Shown here: positions 36,442 through 58,206 of the stretch, one piece after another
Layout: every line of letters begins with the position of its first letter
Numbering within the stretch: the first letter of the stretch is position 1
Origin: Candidatus Methylumidiphilus alinenensis
Lineage (GTDB): Bacteria; Pseudomonadota; Gammaproteobacteria; Methylococcales; Methylococcaceae
Assembly: GCA_003242955.1 (NCBI GenBank)
Contig: QJPH01000334.1
Span: 1 to 64,000, forward strand
Direction: 5' to 3'
DNA: 64,000 bases
Notes under the pieces: generated by a model
Told to the model about the DNA's origin: nothing
Databases searched by the model: none
The model's input: the letters and a program-made list of their open reading frames with translations, nothing else
Translations under genes and position numbers: made by a program

Positions 36442-37065
36442 TCAAATATGAAAACGCCCTAGCATTCCCGCCCGTTCGATAAACTCTATGATTTCATCCA
36501 GCCCAAACTGGGTTTTCAAGTTGGAGAACACAAAAGGCCGCTCGCCGCGCATTTTACGGGCATCACGGTCCATGACCTCCAATGATGCACCTACATAAGG
36601 GGCTAGGTCGATCTTGTTGATGACCAATAAGTCTGAGCGGGTGATGCCGGGTCCGCCCTTGCGGGGGATTTTATCACCCGCAGACACGTCGATGACGTAG
36701 ATCGTCAAATCGGCCAATTCAGGGCTAAAGGTCGCACTGAGGTTGTCCCCGCCGCTTTCCACCAACACTAAATCCAAATCCGCAAAGCGTTCGCACAAAT
36801 CGTCAACTGCGGCAAGGTTCATTGATGCATCCTCTCGGATAGCGGTATGTGGGCAACCGCCGGTTTCCACGCCAACGATGCGCTCCTCCGGCAACGCGCG
36901 ACTGCGGATTAAAAATTGTTGGTCTTCCTTGGTGTAGATATCGTTGGTGACGACTGCCATGCAATATCGACCACTCATGGACTTGCACAGTGCGTCCACC
37001 AAGGCGGTCTTGCCAGAACCCACCGGCCCTCCTACGCCTATGCGCAATACTGTATTTTTACTCAT
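36442..37065 (-). CDS. ureG: Urease accessory GTPase UreG
   Basis: [21 protein letters not shown]...[15 protein letters not shown]...[19 protein letters not shown]. Confidence 0.97.
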
Positions 37066-49645: not shown

Positions 49646-50467
49646 GTGAATAGAAGAAATTTTCCCGTCGCTTGGCGAGCAGAATTAGCGCTCAGGTTTG
49701 CACAACGCAACGGCAAAACCATCCTCGCCGAACGCCGACAACTTGGCCCTCTTACCGTTCAACGGGCATTTTACCCGGAGGGCGAGTTGGCACATGTGTA
49801 TATTCTGCACCCTCCCGGCGGCGTGGTCGGTGGGGATGAATTGGCTATTCAAGTCCATTGTGCCGGTGGAGCTAAAGCCTTGGTGACTACGCCGGCGGCG
49901 GGAAAATTTTACCGTAGCGAGGGGGTGTTGGCACGGCAAACCGTCGGCTTGCAAATCGACGAAGGCTCTAGCTTGGAATGGCTACCGCAGGAAACTCTGC
50001 TATTCAGCGGGGCGCAGGTAGATTTGAGGCTACAGGTCGAATTGGGGTTAAACTCCCGCTTCATCGGCTGGGATATGGTTTGCCTAGGGATGCCCGAATG
50101 CGGTGACGTTTTCGAGCGAGGGTCGGCCCTGTTACGGGTGCGCATCAATCGGCAAGGCCAGCCACTGTTAATCGAAAACCTTAAAGCTGGGCATGAATTT
50201 AGCCAGTCAGCTTGGGGTTTGCGTGGGAATGCGGTGTTAGGTGCATTGTATGCCTATCCATTTCCCCTATCCGACATGGATGCCGTCCGTGAATTGTGGG
50301 AAAATCGACCAGAATTTGCCGCAACCTTGCTGGATGATTTATTGGTTTGCCGGGGTGTTGCTCGACAAACCGCCGAATTGCGGATCGAATTTGAGCGCGT
50401 TTGGCGGTTAGTCAGGCCAGTTGTCATTGGGTGCCGAGCGTGTCCGCCAAGAGTCTGGGCCACTTGA
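49646..50467 (+). CDS. ureD: Urease accessory protein UreD (GTG start)
   Basis: FYPEG..AHVYILHPPGGVVGGDELAIQVHCAGGAKALVTTPAAGKFYRS; C-term ACPPRVWAT. Confidence 0.95.
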   Translation: MNRRNFPVAWRAELALRFAQRNGKTILAERRQLGPLTVQRAFYPEGELAHVYILHPPGGVVGGDELAIQVHCAGGAKALVTTPAAGKFYRSEGVLARQTVGLQIDEGSSLEWLPQETLLFSGAQVDLRLQVELGLNSRFIGWDMVCLGMPECGDVFERGSALLRVRINRQGQPLLIENLKAGHEFSQSAWGLRGNAVLGALYAYPFPLSDMDAVRELWENRPEFAATLLDDLLVCRGVARQTAELRIEFERVWRLVRPVVIGCRACPPRVWAT

Positions 50468-50684
50468 AAATTAATTTTTTGCACAAGCTTGTAGTTAGCG
50501 GTATGTGGCCCGTATGGAGTAAGGGCGACCGGCTGGTCGCTCCTAAGGCACAATCCGGGATAACTTGGCAAAAAAATACCCGGATTACGCCGCTAGCGGC
50601 TCCATCCGGGCTACCACACTATAAGTTAGAAATCGCGCTTAGAAAGCGCTCCCACGATAATACTTAACGTGCTGAGATAAAACC

Positions 50685-50987
50685 ATGCAATTGACCCCCA
50701 GGGAAAAAGACAAATTATTGTTGTTCACTGCCGCCCTGCTCGCCGAACGGCGCAAGGCGCGAGGATTGAAGTTGAATCACCCGGAGGCCGTCGCATTCAT
50801 CAGTGCGGCGATCATGGAAGGGGCGCGGGACGGCCAGACAGTGGCTGAACTGATGGGCTACGGGCGTGCCCTGCTCACCCGCGAAGACGTGATGGAGGGA
50901 GTGCCGGAAATGATCCCCGACGTGCAGGTTGAAGCCACGTTCCCTGATGGCACCAAGCTCGTTACCGTCCATGATCCCATAGTCTAA
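50685..50987 (+). CDS. ureA: Urease gamma subunit
   Basis: [50 protein letters not shown]. Confidence 0.98.
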
Positions 50988-51037
50988 ATTTATTAATCTG
51001 GTATGAGCGTACAAAACCAAGAAGAGGAGGAGAGAAT

Positions 51038-51355
51038 ATGATACCAGGTGAATTGATCGTAGCAGAAGGCAATATCGAACTCAATGAAGGCCGCAAGTCC
51101 ATCAACTTGCGCGTCGCCAATACGGGTGACCGGCCTATTCAAGTCGGCTCGCATTACCACTTTTATGAAACCAATGATGCCTTGCATTTCAACCGCGAGG
51201 CTACAAAAGGTTTCCGGCTGGACATTCCTGCCGGCACAGCGGTGCGCTTTGAGCCTGGGCAGGCACGGGAAGTCACCCTCGTCGAGTTAGCGGGTAAGCG
51301 CGAGGTGTACGGATTCCAACAAAAGATCATGGGTTCCTTGGAGGCAGACGAATGA
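51038..51355 (+). CDS. ureB: Urease beta subunit
   Basis: [46 protein letters not shown]. Confidence 0.98.
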
Positions 51356-53115
51356 GCCGCATATCGCGTATTGCCTACGCCGAAATGTTCGGACCCACCA
51401 CAGGCGATAAAGTTCGACTGGGAGACACCGAATTATTCATAGCCGTCGAAGCCGATTACACCACCTATGGCGAAGAAGTGAAATTCGGTGGCGGCAAAGT
51501 CATCCGCGATGGCATGGGCCAGAGCCAAGCGAGCAATGCCGATGGCGCGGCAGACACGGTCATTACCAATGCTTTGATCCTCGACTATTGGGGCATCGTC
51601 AAAGCCGATATCGGCATTCGCGCAGGACGCATCAGCGGCATAGGCAAGGCGGGCAACCCCGATGTTCAGCCCAACGTGACCATCATAATCGGGCCCGGGA
51701 CAGAAATCATTGCTGGCGAAGGCCATATCATCACCGCCGGCGGGGTCGATTCACACATTCATTTCATCTGTCCGCAGCAAGTGGAAGAAGCCTTGATGTC
51801 TGGCATTACCACGATGATAGGCGGAGGCACTGGACCTGCGACCGGAACAAACGCCACCACTTGCACACCCGGCCCATGGAACCTGCATCGACTATTGCAA
51901 GCCGTTGACGAAATGCCGATGAATATTGGCCTATTGGGCAAAGGCAACGCCAGCCTGCCGAAAGCCTTGACCGAGCAAGTCGAAGCCGGGGCCATGGGTT
52001 TGAAATTGCACGAAGATTGGGGAACTACACCCGCTGCCATTGACTGCTGCCTTGCAGTGGCCGACGATTACGATGTGCAAGTCGCCATCCACACCGATAC
52101 GTTAAACGAATCCGGCTTCGTCGAAGACACCTTTGCTGCATTTAAAGGCCGCGCCATTCATACCTACCATACCGAAGGCGCAGGCGGTGGCCACGCCCCG
52201 GACATTATCAAAGCTTGTGGGCAGCCAAACGTCTTGCCTTCTTCCACTAACCCGACTCGGCCTTACACCGTCAACACGGTGGACGAACATCTGGACATGT
52301 TAATGGTTTGCCATCATTTACATGCTTCCATTCCTGAAGACATTGCCTTCGCCGAATCCCGCATCCGCCGCGAGACCATCGCCGCCGAAGACATCTTGCA
52401 CGATCTCGGCGCGTTTTCGATGATTTCCTCCGACTCCCAAGCCATGGGCCGGGTCGGCGAAGTCATCATCCGCACTTGGCAGACGGCGCATAAGATGAAA
52501 GTGCAGCGCGGTCATTTATCAGCGGGGAAAGAGGTTGGGGGTTCTTCGCTCCCCTCGCCCTTTGGGGGAGAGGGGCTGGGGGAGAGGGGTAATAACGACA
52601 ACTTCCGCGCCAAACGCTACATCGCCAAATACACCATCAACCCCGCCATCACCCATGGCATCGCCCATGAAATCGGCTCGGTTGAAGTCGGCAAACTGGC
52701 CGATTTGGTGTTATGGAACCCGGCTTTCTTTGCAGTGAAACCCAGCTTGATTATCAAGGGTGGACTGATTGCCGCCGCCCCGATGGGCGACATCAACGGC
52801 TCCATCCCCACCCCACAGCCGGTGCATTACCGTCCAATGTTTGCAGCCTATGGTAAAGCTTGCCAAGCCACTTCGATGACGTTCTTGTCCAAAGCAGCGG
52901 CGGAATCCGGCGTAGCCGACAAAATAGGCTTAAAAAAGCTAATCGGTGTGGTAGCCAATACCCGAACCATCGGCAAAAAGGATTTGCTGCATAATACCTA
53001 TCAACCGCATATAGAAGTCGATGCACAAACCTATCAAGTCCGTGCCGATGGGGAGTTATTAGTCTGCGAACCGGCGGAAGTGTTACCCTTGGCGCAGAGG
53101 TATTTTTTGTTTTGA
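51352..53115 (+). CDS. ureC: Urease alpha subunit with in-frame repeat-derived insertion (~52525-52592)
   Basis: [65 protein letters not shown] preceded by extra [23 protein letters not shown]. Confidence 0.97.
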
Positions 53116-53117
53116 TG

Positions 53118-54329
53118 TTATCTAAATAACCGAATAATGAATCTTTCGCCATCTTCGACAAGTTCAGGCTTGGTGCTGTTATGATTCCACATGGCCTTCA
53201 CAATTTTTCTGGGTATTCCCATACCAGAATGCTCAAGGTAACGGTAATCTCTCATTACATCTTTGATAAGCTGATTACGAGCAGCACGGCAACCAGTCAG
53301 CATCCTATCTGGCGTAATGCCATTTGGCAAACGACCCGGAGATATTACTTCCAATCTGTCATCATAAATCGTTAGCTCAATATCCGTACTGGATAACAAA
53401 TAATCACGATGAATAAGCGCATTCACGATCGCCTCGCGAATGGCTTCTGGTGGATAGCTTGGTTTTTCATTGCGTCTGGCACCTCCCTCTTCGATTTGTC
53501 CGGCGACAACGGTATTGCGCTGGACAAAGGCAAGAGCCTGTTCGACCAAGCCAGACTCAACAATCTCGTCATTCTCGTTAAGAAGTGGAGTCATTGGCCC
53601 ACGCAATGTGCTACGTTCGTGCGCAGCGTAATCTTTGGCATTTCCAACGAAGGCTGTCGCATCAATACCGGCTTGTGGTAAAAACCGATTTGGATTGCGA
53701 CCAAACAAGAGTATTCCCGAAACGGTTATACCATCTTCAACCATGATTTCTGTGTTAAACAGCAAATTTTGCCAACCGGTTTCATCATCGTCTGCCGGAA
53801 CATCCTGTTGCCGGACGTGCGCAAAATAATTTTTCAGTCGACGCTGATCGAGATCAGTCATCGTTGCGCCGGAAACAGGCTGCAATTCTACACGAAAGCT
53901 ACCGCGCTGCTGGAATAGCCGGCCAAGCTCTTCGGGCGTTGGCTCTCGGCTTTGTGTGCCGACACGGATATAGTAAGCATTTTTGTTTTTATGCCAGACA
54001 GTATGAACATCAAACCCACGAGATACCCGCACGACCGCAATATCCTTTCCAAGCTCAACCTCCTTGAATAGCTCATAGAAAGGAATGATTGCCGGTCTGA
54101 TTTTGTCTCGGCAAGCGGTCATTACCCATTCCTCTAGCTTATCTCGGGTGATTCCACTGATACTGCCATCATCCTCGACACCCAACAAAACCATGCCGCC
54201 GACAAAATTGGCAAAGGCGACAAGCTCTTTCGCCAAGTCGTAATTTTCAATGACATCCCGTTTAAATTCTATACCTGAATTCTCGCCGTTACGAATAATC
54301 TCAAGAAGTTCTGTACGGGTAATGGTCAT
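53118..54329 (-). CDS. AlbA_2 (schlafen-like) DNA-binding domain plus HATPase_c_4 ATP-binding protein
   Basis: NGENSGIEFKRDVIENYDLAKELVAFANFVGGMVLLGVEDDGSISG ... PPEAIREAIVNALIHRDYLLSSTDIELTIYDDRLEVISPGRLPNGIT. Confidence 0.9.
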   Translation of the reverse strand: MTITRTELLEIIRNGENSGIEFKRDVIENYDLAKELVAFANFVGGMVLLGVEDDGSISGITRDKLEEWVMTACRDKIRPAIIPFYELFKEVELGKDIAVVRVSRGFDVHTVWHKNKNAYYIRVGTQSREPTPEELGRLFQQRGSFRVELQPVSGATMTDLDQRRLKNYFAHVRQQDVPADDDETGWQNLLFNTEIMVEDGITVSGILLFGRNPNRFLPQAGIDATAFVGNAKDYAAHERSTLRGPMTPLLNENDEIVESGLVEQALAFVQRNTVVAGQIEEGGARRNEKPSYPPEAIREAIVNALIHRDYLLSSTDIELTIYDDRLEVISPGRLPNGITPDRMLTGCRAARNQLIKDVMRDYRYLEHSGMGIPRKIVKAMWNHNSTKPELVEDGERFIIRLFR

Positions 54330-54331
54330 AT

Positions 54332-57034
54332 TTAGAATCCATATTTTTGACGGCGCATCTCAAACGCTGCTTTACCGCCTTCAAGGATTTTTTCAACCAT
54401 TTCCCTGACGGGTTGAATATCGATTGATCCCATATGGCGCTCACTGACACGTCCCTGAACGATGTCGTTCTGACTGCCAGTGGATAACCCTATAATCAGT
54501 TCAGCATCGCCTAATACCGGAATGTTTGCGTTGTGAGTCGAAAAAATAAATTGCCGCTTGCGCTTTTCGTCTTCCATCGTTGGGACGATGCCATCCGTAA
54601 TAAAGCGGTTATCGAGATCGTCTTCCGGCTGATCGACAACCAGAGGAGCCGCAGACTCAAGCAATAACAGCAAAAGCACCGCCGTTGCCTTTTGACCGGT
54701 AGACAGGTCTTTAAGTGTCTGCCATGTCGGTGGTTCGCTTTCGCGCGCGGTGTTTAATTCAATTTTGGTTGTCGCCGGTAGTTCCACTTCTTCGATCTTC
54801 ATGAACACATCAGTTCCAGCCATTGCCAAGTGCTCGGCTGCCATAGGTGGGAAACGGTAATGAGTTACCAGAGCCTCCTTGCCTTCACGACAACGATCCG
54901 CTAAATCCCGCAATGACAAGCTGTCACGACTTTTCAGACGGTCAATTAGCGCGGCAAGATTACCGCCGATCTCATCGCGCAATAGTCGCTCTAGCGGTTC
55001 GCGGTTGCCGCCCATGTTGACTTTGGCTTGTACCCGTTCATTGAGCTTCTTAGTTACCTTTTTAGCGGCTCTTTCCAAAGCCCGGTATTCAGAAGATTGG
55101 AGATTTTCCCATTCATCAATCAGTTTCCGCCGATTGGCTTGATGAGTGGCAAGATCGCGGGTGAGTGCATCTTTTCTCTCACGCAATGGTCTCAACTCTT
55201 CAATTTGCTGCCGCAGATCGATGAATTCCTTACCATCAATTTTCTCTTTGTGCAGTTCGCGCAACAGGCTTTGATAGGTGGCATCCACCGCTTGCTGGCG
55301 CTCGTCCCAACGAGCGCGTAACACTGAAAGTTCGTTATCAGCGTTGGCAAGTAGAGTTACGACCTGGTTAGCGACCGTTTGAAGCTGGCTGTTAAGCTTT
55401 TCGAGAATCGCCCCACCCTCAATCAGCAGACCGCTGTTTGGCAATCCTTCGAGTGCTTTTTCGGACAGGAAGGCGGTATCGATAGGTAATAACTCGGACA
55501 ATTCTTGCTGTACGGCGGCAATGGGGGTTAACCGTTCCTTTACCGTGTTCAAAATGCGCTCCTCGCGCACCAGAAGGCTTTTCTCTTTGAGACGTTCCTC
55601 TAGTCCGGCGTTTTGGAATCGTTTCTGAGTTTCTTCCAAACTGGGTAATATCGAGAGCCGCTCGTCGATGAGCTTTATTTCCCGTTGCACATCGGTAATC
55701 CGACTCCGTGACCGCGCCAATTCCAAGCGCAACTTGGCTTTTTGTGCGCCTGCACTAGGCTCGCGTTCGACAAAACGCTCAAGCAACTGCGTTTGTTTTT
55801 CAGGACTGTTGGCTAGCTCGGAAATCTCGTGCTGACCAAAAACCTCGACACCGGGAATTACATCGCACGGGGACAGGTTTAACACATTACCGATTTCGTC
55901 CTTGACAACCGGGGGGTTTGGAACGGTGCGTTCAATGGTGTAATGATGTCTTGCCGGGTGGTGAGACCGCACCAATAGCGAAATCTTGGTGCCGCTTTTT
56001 AGGACATTTTTGACAACACCTTCATGCGCTTTGCGAGCCTCTTCGCCCAAGGGTTCGAGAGCCATGGCATAGCGAATGCTTTCAATGATAGTCGATTTTC
56101 CAGTGCCTCTGCCACCGATCAATACATTAAGATTACTGTTGAACTGGATTCTGCATCCATCAAGAAAGTCGCCGCCCTCCCAAGCCATGGCAACAAATTC
56201 GGTATGAGGCTCAGGTGTTGGCTCTTTATTAAGCCGAATACGGGATTTAGGGGCTAGGAATGCTTGGCGCAAACCCTCGACTGACAAGGCCGACATTTTA
56301 ATCAAGCAGGTCGAGCTTGGCTCGGCAATATCCTCCGGGCTATATACGTCGGAAGCATTAATGACAGCAACAGGCGGCTCGCGATGATAATCGCAGTTCT
56401 TGTTCTTTAGGATGGGCTGGATGTTTGGCGGAGCCTCGTCGATTGGGCCGGGCAAAGCGCAAGCATATAGGTTGGAAGATTTCCAGGCATTCATGCGAGG
56501 CTGACCATCAAGCGTCGTCAGCAAGCCATTATCGGCGGCAACATGAGCAGCAATTGCTATTCCTCCTTGGTTGCGAACACATTCCAACAGATCAAGACAA
56601 TCTTTGTCCCCATTAGGAGATAAGGCATTATGGTCGTGAATGCCAAATTGACCGATAAATCTTTCCAAGCTTTGATCCTTGTCGGAGTCATAGAGGCAAA
56701 GAAAATGTACCCCGTCCTTGGATGAAGCCTCGAAACCTCCGAAAACGACAATGCCGTTTGCGCGAGCCTCATGGATTAACTTCCATGAATCGGCTACCCG
56801 GTAATGGTCGGTAACCGCAATTGCCTCAATTTCTTTTTCTTTGCAAGCTGCCACGATAGCGGCATTGTATTCAGCTTCGTTATTGAAAGTCGTCTGCTTG
56901 GAATGACGCCCGTGATAGGCAAATGGGTTAATTTGGAGGGCGCAACGATAAAACCGTGCGCCGTTTGGTTGCTTCAACGCCTCTTTCAATGGCTGTGATG
57001 CGGTTTTGTTATCTTCCATTGGTGATTTCCTCAA
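54332..57034 (-). CDS. PHP-domain plus SMC/AAA-like ATPase (TrlF family; similar architecture to the Ppl defence protein)
   Basis: N-term PHP-like (EAIAVTDHYRVADS...GGIAIAAHV); Walker A NVLIGGRGTGKSTIIESIRYA; STGQKATAVLLLLLLESAAPLVVDQPEDDLDNRFI; FIFSTHNANIPVLGDAE. Confidence 0.87.
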   Translation of the reverse strand: MRKSPMEDNKTASQPLKEALKQPNGARFYRCALQINPFAYHGRHSKQTTFNNEAEYNAAIVAACKEKEIEAIAVTDHYRVADSWKLIHEARANGIVVFGGFEASSKDGVHFLCLYDSDKDQSLERFIGQFGIHDHNALSPNGDKDCLDLLECVRNQGGIAIAAHVAADNGLLTTLDGQPRMNAWKSSNLYACALPGPIDEAPPNIQPILKNKNCDYHREPPVAVINASDVYSPEDIAEPSSTCLIKMSALSVEGLRQAFLAPKSRIRLNKEPTPEPHTEFVAMAWEGGDFLDGCRIQFNSNLNVLIGGRGTGKSTIIESIRYAMALEPLGEEARKAHEGVVKNVLKSGTKISLLVRSHHPARHHYTIERTVPNPPVVKDEIGNVLNLSPCDVIPGVEVFGQHEISELANSPEKQTQLLERFVEREPSAGAQKAKLRLELARSRSRITDVQREIKLIDERLSILPSLEETQKRFQNAGLEERLKEKSLLVREERILNTVKERLTPIAAVQQELSELLPIDTAFLSEKALEGLPNSGLLIEGGAILEKLNSQLQTVANQVVTLLANADNELSVLRARWDERQQAVDATYQSLLRELHKEKIDGKEFIDLRQQIEELRPLRERKDALTRDLATHQANRRKLIDEWENLQSSEYRALERAAKKVTKKLNERVQAKVNMGGNREPLERLLRDEIGGNLAALIDRLKSRDSLSLRDLADRCREGKEALVTHYRFPPMAAEHLAMAGTDVFMKIEEVELPATTKIELNTARESEPPTWQTLKDLSTGQKATAVLLLLLLESAAPLVVDQPEDDLDNRFITDGIVPTMEDEKRKRQFIFSTHNANIPVLGDAELIIGLSTGSQNDIVQGRVSERHMGSIDIQPVREMVEKILEGGKAAFEMRRQKYGF

Positions 57035-57113
57035 CTATCCAACCCATGAATCCAATTTATTGCATAAATGTTATTATACCAAGCCCTATTCAAACTCCGA
57101 AAGCCATTCAAAC

Positions 57114-57542
57114 ATGCCCAAACTCACCGAATTCGCTCCGCCCGGCACTGAACCTACCCGCACCTTGACCCTGTCTTACCAATCCCGCACCAAAAGCCGC
57201 TTGCTCGCCAAGCTAGACAATGGCGAAGACGTAGGGCTATTTTTGGAACGTGGCAGGGTTTTGCGCGGTGGGGATGTGTTGACCGGGCAGGAAGGCTTGG
57301 GGGTGTTAATCATAGCCGCTGAGGAGATGGTTTCCGTAGCGCGAACGGATGACAGGCTACTGCTGGCCCGTGCCTGCTATCACTTGGGCAACCGCCATGT
57401 CGCCCTGCAAATCGAACCGGGTGAGTTGCGTTACCTGACAGACCATGTGCTGGATGACATGGTGCGAGGCTTGGGGCTTGTTGTATATCATGAATCCGCG
57501 CCCTTCGAGCCGGAAAGTGGGGCCTATGACCATGGACACTGA
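57114..57542 (+). CDS. ureE: Urease accessory protein UreE
   Basis: LFLERGRVLRGGDVLTGQEGLGVLIIAAEEMVSVARTDDRLLLARACYHLGNRHVALQIEPGELRYLTDHVLDDMVRGLG. Confidence 0.95.
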   Translation: MPKLTEFAPPGTEPTRTLTLSYQSRTKSRLLAKLDNGEDVGLFLERGRVLRGGDVLTGQEGLGVLIIAAEEMVSVARTDDRLLLARACYHLGNRHVALQIEPGELRYLTDHVLDDMVRGLGLVVYHESAPFEPESGAYDHGH

Positions 57543-58206
57543 TTTGGCTTTGCTGCGACTGTTGCAACTGGTTAGCCCGTCGCTGCCAGTCGGCATGTAC
57601 AGCTATTCCCAAGGTATGGAGCAAGCGGTGGAAAACGGATGGATCAAGAACGAGGCGCAAACAAGGGACTGGCTTGCTGGCCTGTTGCGGCACAGTCTGG
57701 CTCGGCTAGATGCGGCCCTGTTGGTGCAGCTTTACGATGCCTGGGCGCGGAATGATGCGGACGCGGTAGTTCGCTGGAGCATGGAACTGACGGCAATGCG
57801 CGAGACGGAGGAATTGCGTACGGAAGATCGGCAAACCGGGCAAGCCTTGGCTCGCTTGTTGGACGGGCTAGGGGTGGAGCGGGCCAAGGGTTGGGTGCGC
57901 CATCCCCACGCCACCTTTGCCACGATGTTTACATTGGCGGCGGTGGAGTGGGACATTTCCAAAGCGCAAACCATCGCCGGGTATCTTTGGAGTTGGCTGG
58001 AAAACCAAGCCCTATGTGCAGTAAAATTAGTGCCTCTAGGCCAGTTGGCCGGACAAAGGCTATTGTATGGCTTGGCTATGGAAATACCAGGACTAGTGGA
58101 AGCGGCCTTGGATTTGCCTGACGATGAGATAGGCTCAAGTTGCTTTGCGTTGACCTTGGCTTCCAGTCGCCATGAAAGGCAGTATTCGCGGTTGTTCCGT
58201 TCCTAA
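57526..58206 (+). CDS. ureF: Urease accessory protein UreF
   Basis: LLRLLQLVSPSLPVGMYSYSQGMEQAVENGWI...ETEELRTEDRQTGQALARLL. Confidence 0.95.
   Translation: MTMDTDLALLRLLQLVSPSLPVGMYSYSQGMEQAVENGWIKNEAQTRDWLAGLLRHSLARLDAALLVQLYDAWARNDADAVVRWSMELTAMRETEELRTEDRQTGQALARLLDGLGVERAKGWVRHPHATFATMFTLAAVEWDISKAQTIAGYLWSWLENQALCAVKLVPLGQLAGQRLLYGLAMEIPGLVEAALDLPDDEIGSSCFALTLASSRHERQYSRLFRS

Follow-up and report, generated by a model that had tools for sequence, protein, structure and literature searches.

The window analyzed here, a 64-kb (64,000-nucleotide) stretch of DNA from Candidatus Methylumidiphilus alinenensis, carries a urease operon that is interrupted by two genes on the opposite strand, raising the questions of how this pair came to lie there and what it does. 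The genes ureD-ureA-ureB-ureC (49646 to 53115) precede the pair and ureE-ureF (57114 to 58206) follow it, all on the forward strand (Table 1). A preliminary description had given this gene order and the coordinates of ureC, the pair, and ureE, and these were confirmed on the sequence. The Schlafen gene ends at 53118, against 53115 for ureC, and lies 2 bp downstream of the TrlF gene, the stop codon of which occupies 54332 to 54334. The latter gene had been described as encoding a 900-aa PHP and SMC-like ATPase from a start at 57034; its end stood, but its extent did not, as the ATG at 57019 (895 aa) was preferred over the TTG because a GAGG Shine-Dalgarno sequence is present 9 nt upstream and the orthologue in a congener (G006) has no TTG extension. 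The sequence TGNTATAAT had two matches across the 64-kb window, and a consensus scan upstream of the TrlF gene did not find a full sigma-70 site.

Table 1. Features at the interruption of the urease operon in the window
Feature	Coordinates	Strand	Basis or remark
ureC	51352..53115	+	Left flank of insertion
Schlafen/AlbA_2 plus GHKL-type ATPase (HATPase_c_4) partner, 403 aa	53118..54329	-	Pfam matches, AF2 model, triad conservation, alignment to 5yd0
TrlF-family ATPase, 895 aa: remodeled PHP domain (residues ~20-265) and ABC/SMC-like ATPase head interrupted by a coiled coil	54332..57019	-	NF045780 profile, AF2 model, ABC motifs
Extended -10 promoter-like site TGGTATAAT, upstream of TrlF gene	57073..57081	-	Spotted by eye; kept in congener G001 (L061)
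ureE	57114..57542	+	Right flank of insertion

The G+C content across the pair is 0.44 to 0.52 (approximately 0.48), compared with 0.54 to 0.58 (approximately 0.55) in the flanking ure genes. In other genera of the same family and order, ureC-ureE-ureF was found without an insert at 19 of 22 ureC loci, with ureE a few bases after ureC (at the other three, the 1.5 kb fetched contained no ureE). The junction in relatives therefore represents an empty site, which, together with the dip in G+C, supports the earlier proposal of a horizontal insertion between ureC and ureE. The urease genes of the window have further peculiarities. The ureG gene lies at 36454 to 37065, approximately 13 kb upstream of ureD and on the opposite strand, whereas relatives have it after ureF. 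At 52537 to 52590, ureC contains an in-frame insert with two copies of GGGGAGAGG that resembles a dispersed palindromic repeat; ureCs of the family are approximately 10 to 20 residues shorter than that of the window.

Pairs of the window type were identified in three of the seven genomes of the genus, namely, that of the window (G000) and those of G001 and G006, in which the proteins share 85 to 96% identity with those of the window pair. In G001, the pair lies near ureC, behind a flavodoxin gene, and is flanked by a 59- to 66-bp copy of the 3' end of ureC and, on the other side, by approximately 35 bp of the 5' end of ureE; in a further congener (G003) the same interval has no pair. These remnants of ureC and ureE show that the ancestor of the G001 copy lay, as in the window, in a ureC-cassette-ureE arrangement. 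The G006 pair sits beside kdsB, and neither ureC nor ureE was detected in that genome. Between G000 and G001, the dS of the cassette (0.35 to 0.36) is lower than for any of the ure genes (0.53 to 1.08 for ureA to ureF), favoring transfer after the lineages split. Judged from these comparisons, the cassette probably moved horizontally. No close copy was found in the rest of the family, and, of the collection scanned, Burkholderiales, Acidiphilium, and Lautropia MAGs gave the best matches beyond the genus (74 to 76%). A mobile-element mechanism for the insertion was rejected for want of direct repeats of at least 8 bp and of an adjoining transposase, a single 8-bp inverted match being present between the cassette ends; illegitimate recombination is our guess as to how it took place.

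Assignment of the larger protein to the TrlF family was borne out by the TrlF_fam_ATP profile (NF045780), which matched residues 19 to 894 with 531.5 bits against a cut-off of 350. Its ABC motifs are GGRGTGKST (Walker A), LSTGQK (signature), and VVDQPED (Walker B), and among 76 aligned TrlFs the Walker A, the LSTGQK signature, the Walker B DQPED, and the H-loop THN are conserved. The AF2 model (pLDDT 87) matched the heads of SMC, RecN, Rad50, and Wadjet JetC, and omega values of 0.16 to 0.19 indicate purifying selection. Motif I of the PHP domain is Q29-I30-N31 in place of HxH, with QxN in nearly all of the 76 aligned proteins, where the final His of motif IV is replaced by Val or Ile and the PHP-site residues H72, E97, H105, H159, and D224 are nearly invariant. 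TrlFs found without the partner also have QxN; therefore, the loss of HxH does not track partner presence. The preliminary description had equated this protein with Ppl, which acts by its PHP exonuclease (PMC12904381). Membership was rejected, as the match to the Ppl model (NF042955) was 166.6 bits against a cut-off of 1000 and motif I has changed from HxH to QxN, the need of Ppl itself for HxH being deduced from the PHP fold.

For the smaller protein, the proposed AlbA_2 and HATPase domains were both recovered by profile (SLFN_AlbA_2, PF04326, 69 bits, E = 6e-19; HATPase_c_4, 75 bits). Its AF2 model (pLDDT 91.6) has the AlbA_2/Schlafen fold and matched 3lmm (uncharacterized), human SLFN14, SLFN11, SLFN12, SLFN13, and SLFN5, and the SAMD9 tRNase domain, with low TM-scores, as expected for a shared domain. 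In a profile alignment to 5yd0, the acidic residues E16, E21, and D53, kept in 47, 45, and 41 of 47 sequences, respectively, align with SLFN13 E205, E210, and D248, mutation of which lowers cleavage, with mutation of the two Glu residues abolishing it (PMC5862951). With this triad conserved and with matches to SLFN11, SLFN13, SLFN14, and SAMD9, a Schlafen RNase-type domain is a better description than the "DNA-binding" label originally applied. AlbA_2 domains in general have the EFK motif, so its conservation is no proof of catalysis. Omega was 0.07 to 0.08, again indicating purifying selection.

Species genomes were scanned with a TrlF alignment alone, and the best 80 of the 537 candidate loci, which are not phylogenetically independent, span many phyla and include an ANME-1 archaeon. 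Of these 80 loci, 73 had 400 nt or more of sequence on the downstream side, and in 64 of the 73 a Schlafen gene lies directly downstream on the same strand, 54 of the 73 having a complete adjacent Schlafen ORF. Within a class-wide sample, 10 of the 17 TrlF loci above the cut-off (a set that includes the second copy of the window's own genome, on contig C60) were paired, including TrlFs with intact HxH. Distances among the TrlF proteins track those among the Schlafen proteins (r = 0.81, against a maximum of 0.23 in permutations). The TrlF-Schlafen pair is a real unit, linked in other genomes as the idea of a two-gene cassette had implied. The partner is missing at 9 of the 73 loci, and plasmid TrlFs are often alone; given such loci, TrlF may function on its own. 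There are also Schlafen genes without TrlF, and on contig C227 of G001 (L075, 619 to 2724) one of the same type is located after a gene that, inspected by eye, looks TOPRIM-like, which hints at further combinations of partners.

The existence of TrlF-only loci, also on plasmids, fits a single-protein defense system like Ppl, in which TrlF would combine the roles of nuclease and sensor, with the Schlafen gene encoding only a regulator (a COG2865-type "transcriptional regulator"); some metal binding could persist at the nearly invariant PHP-site residues. We consider this unlikely, given QxN in nearly all 76 relatives, the loss of the last His of motif IV, a score of approximately 167 bits where Ppl requires 1000, and a partner that is both widely kept and equipped with an RNase triad.

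The company kept by these genes, frequently restriction, BREX, or Hma genes, bears on their function. When the 94 genes that flank paired loci were compared with PADLOC models, matches at E ≤ 1e-30 were to HmaB (6), MTase_III (4), PglZ (3), DUF499 (2), and BrxL, BrxC, MTase_I, and REase_III (1 each), these being counts per family, not per locus, with overlaps possible; the 43 other genes of the window gave no PADLOC matches. Eight of 10 large upstream genes, picked by hand, were of restriction type. A phmmer search with BREX seeds from the window's own genome found neighbors at 12 of the best 80 of 537 loci, an undercount relative to PADLOC, which was used instead. The second pair in this genome, 25 to 46% identical to that of the window, lies on C60 among BrxC, PglX, BrxHI-type helicase, and PglZ genes, a BREX-like locus (L063, 874 to 17771) with two Schlafen genes around the second TrlF. 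On a Vibrio parahaemolyticus plasmid the order is pglX-TrlF-Schlafen-pglZ-brxL, and on a Klebsiella plasmid brxL-TrlF, with the partner absent. The C60 and Vibrio copies thus lie inside BREX loci; the window copy, in its urease operon, does not, and like further second-type pairs in G001 and G004 it lies among housekeeping genes, not in a defense island.

The matches of TrlF to SMC, RecN, and Rad50 heads, and its annotation in some records as a DNA repair protein, would suit a RecN/Rad50-like role in DNA repair or genome maintenance instead of defense. Such a role appears improbable in light of the patchy distribution, the horizontal movement, and the location within BREX and restriction operons. 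Moreover, Wadjet JetC has the same head fold, yet is a defense protein. Insertion in the ure operon could also mean that the pair is a passenger that was selected because of its place there and whose role relates to urease or nitrogen. In another gammaproteobacterial MAG (L130, 3002 to 9976), ureABC is adjoined, in divergent orientation, by a TrlF-Schlafen pair with 50% identity, probably by coincidence. A urease-related role was rejected, and is highly improbable, as this was the only one of the best 80 of 537 TrlF loci near ure genes, at a different junction; G006 has the pair without detectable ureC or ureE, and relatives have urease without the pair.

A defense role is argued from genomic context and homology. 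That the pair recurs in many phyla, and often within DNA restriction systems, points to a portable antiviral module of two parts. On balance, we favor the pair as a horizontally acquired two-gene anti-phage module in which a TrlF sensor/switch controls a Schlafen tRNase-like effector. TrlF, an SMC/RecN-like ATPase with a remodeled, probably non-nucleolytic PHP domain, would sense infection, the trigger perhaps being abnormal DNA ends or inhibition of a neighboring restriction or BREX system. The Schlafen protein, a predicted E-E-D endoribonuclease that is probably tRNA directed, would be regulated by its own GHKL ATP-binding domain and by a putative interaction with TrlF. Once triggered, TrlF would release or activate this nuclease, stopping translation and aborting the infection, by a logic like that of PARIS or PrrC/RloC. 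More tentatively, TrlF-Schlafen could be a two-component immune system in its own right, widespread and able to move independently, often a backup guarding restriction or BREX, in which the ancestral PHP nuclease of TrlF became a non-cutting sensor (HxH to QxN) and the role of effector passed to a Schlafen tRNase. The model would tie TrlF/Ppl PHP-ATPases and bacterial Schlafens, studied apart, into one portable module, and would give a concrete partner to bacterial Schlafen nucleases, relatives of human antiviral SLFN11, SLFN13, and SLFN14 and of SAMD9. It also predicts functional residues, and in the urease-operon copies such a module would be seen to have moved on its own, still bearing fragments of the flanks it had before.

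A literature search for TrlF as a defense system found nothing relevant, and no description of a TrlF-Schlafen module was found in the literature searched; linkage of Schlafen to BREX is already published. The window protein resembles the TrlF family (NF045780) in its full-length match and in its PHP and coiled-coil ABC ATPase, but the family model is silent on a Schlafen partner and the window clade has QxN for HxH. Ppl, a PHP single-stranded DNA exonuclease that is relieved from NTP inhibition and senses 3' ends (PMC12904381), likewise has PHP fused to an SMC-like ATPase; the window pair differs in falling far below the Ppl cut-off, in having lost PHP motif I, and in having a second protein. 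Linkage to BREX is reported, in 1017 taxa, for genes of a Schlafen RNase with a minimal histidine kinase (PMC12839542), and according to work cited there, tRNA is cut by Schlafen-linked systems during abortive infection. The BREX-linked genes share the architecture of the partner, and some TrlF-Schlafen loci share the BREX context, but the main text of that report mentions neither PHP nor TrlF, and here Schlafen is in a fixed pair with TrlF that is also mobile alone outside BREX. PARIS, an ABC ATPase (AriA) and a TOPRIM tRNase (AriB) beside BREX (PMC12839542), has an ATPase of a different family (the AriA match was weak, at 33 bits) and a TOPRIM protein where the window pair has Schlafen; the likeness lies in an ATPase and nuclease pair near BREX or restriction genes and in the proposed logic.
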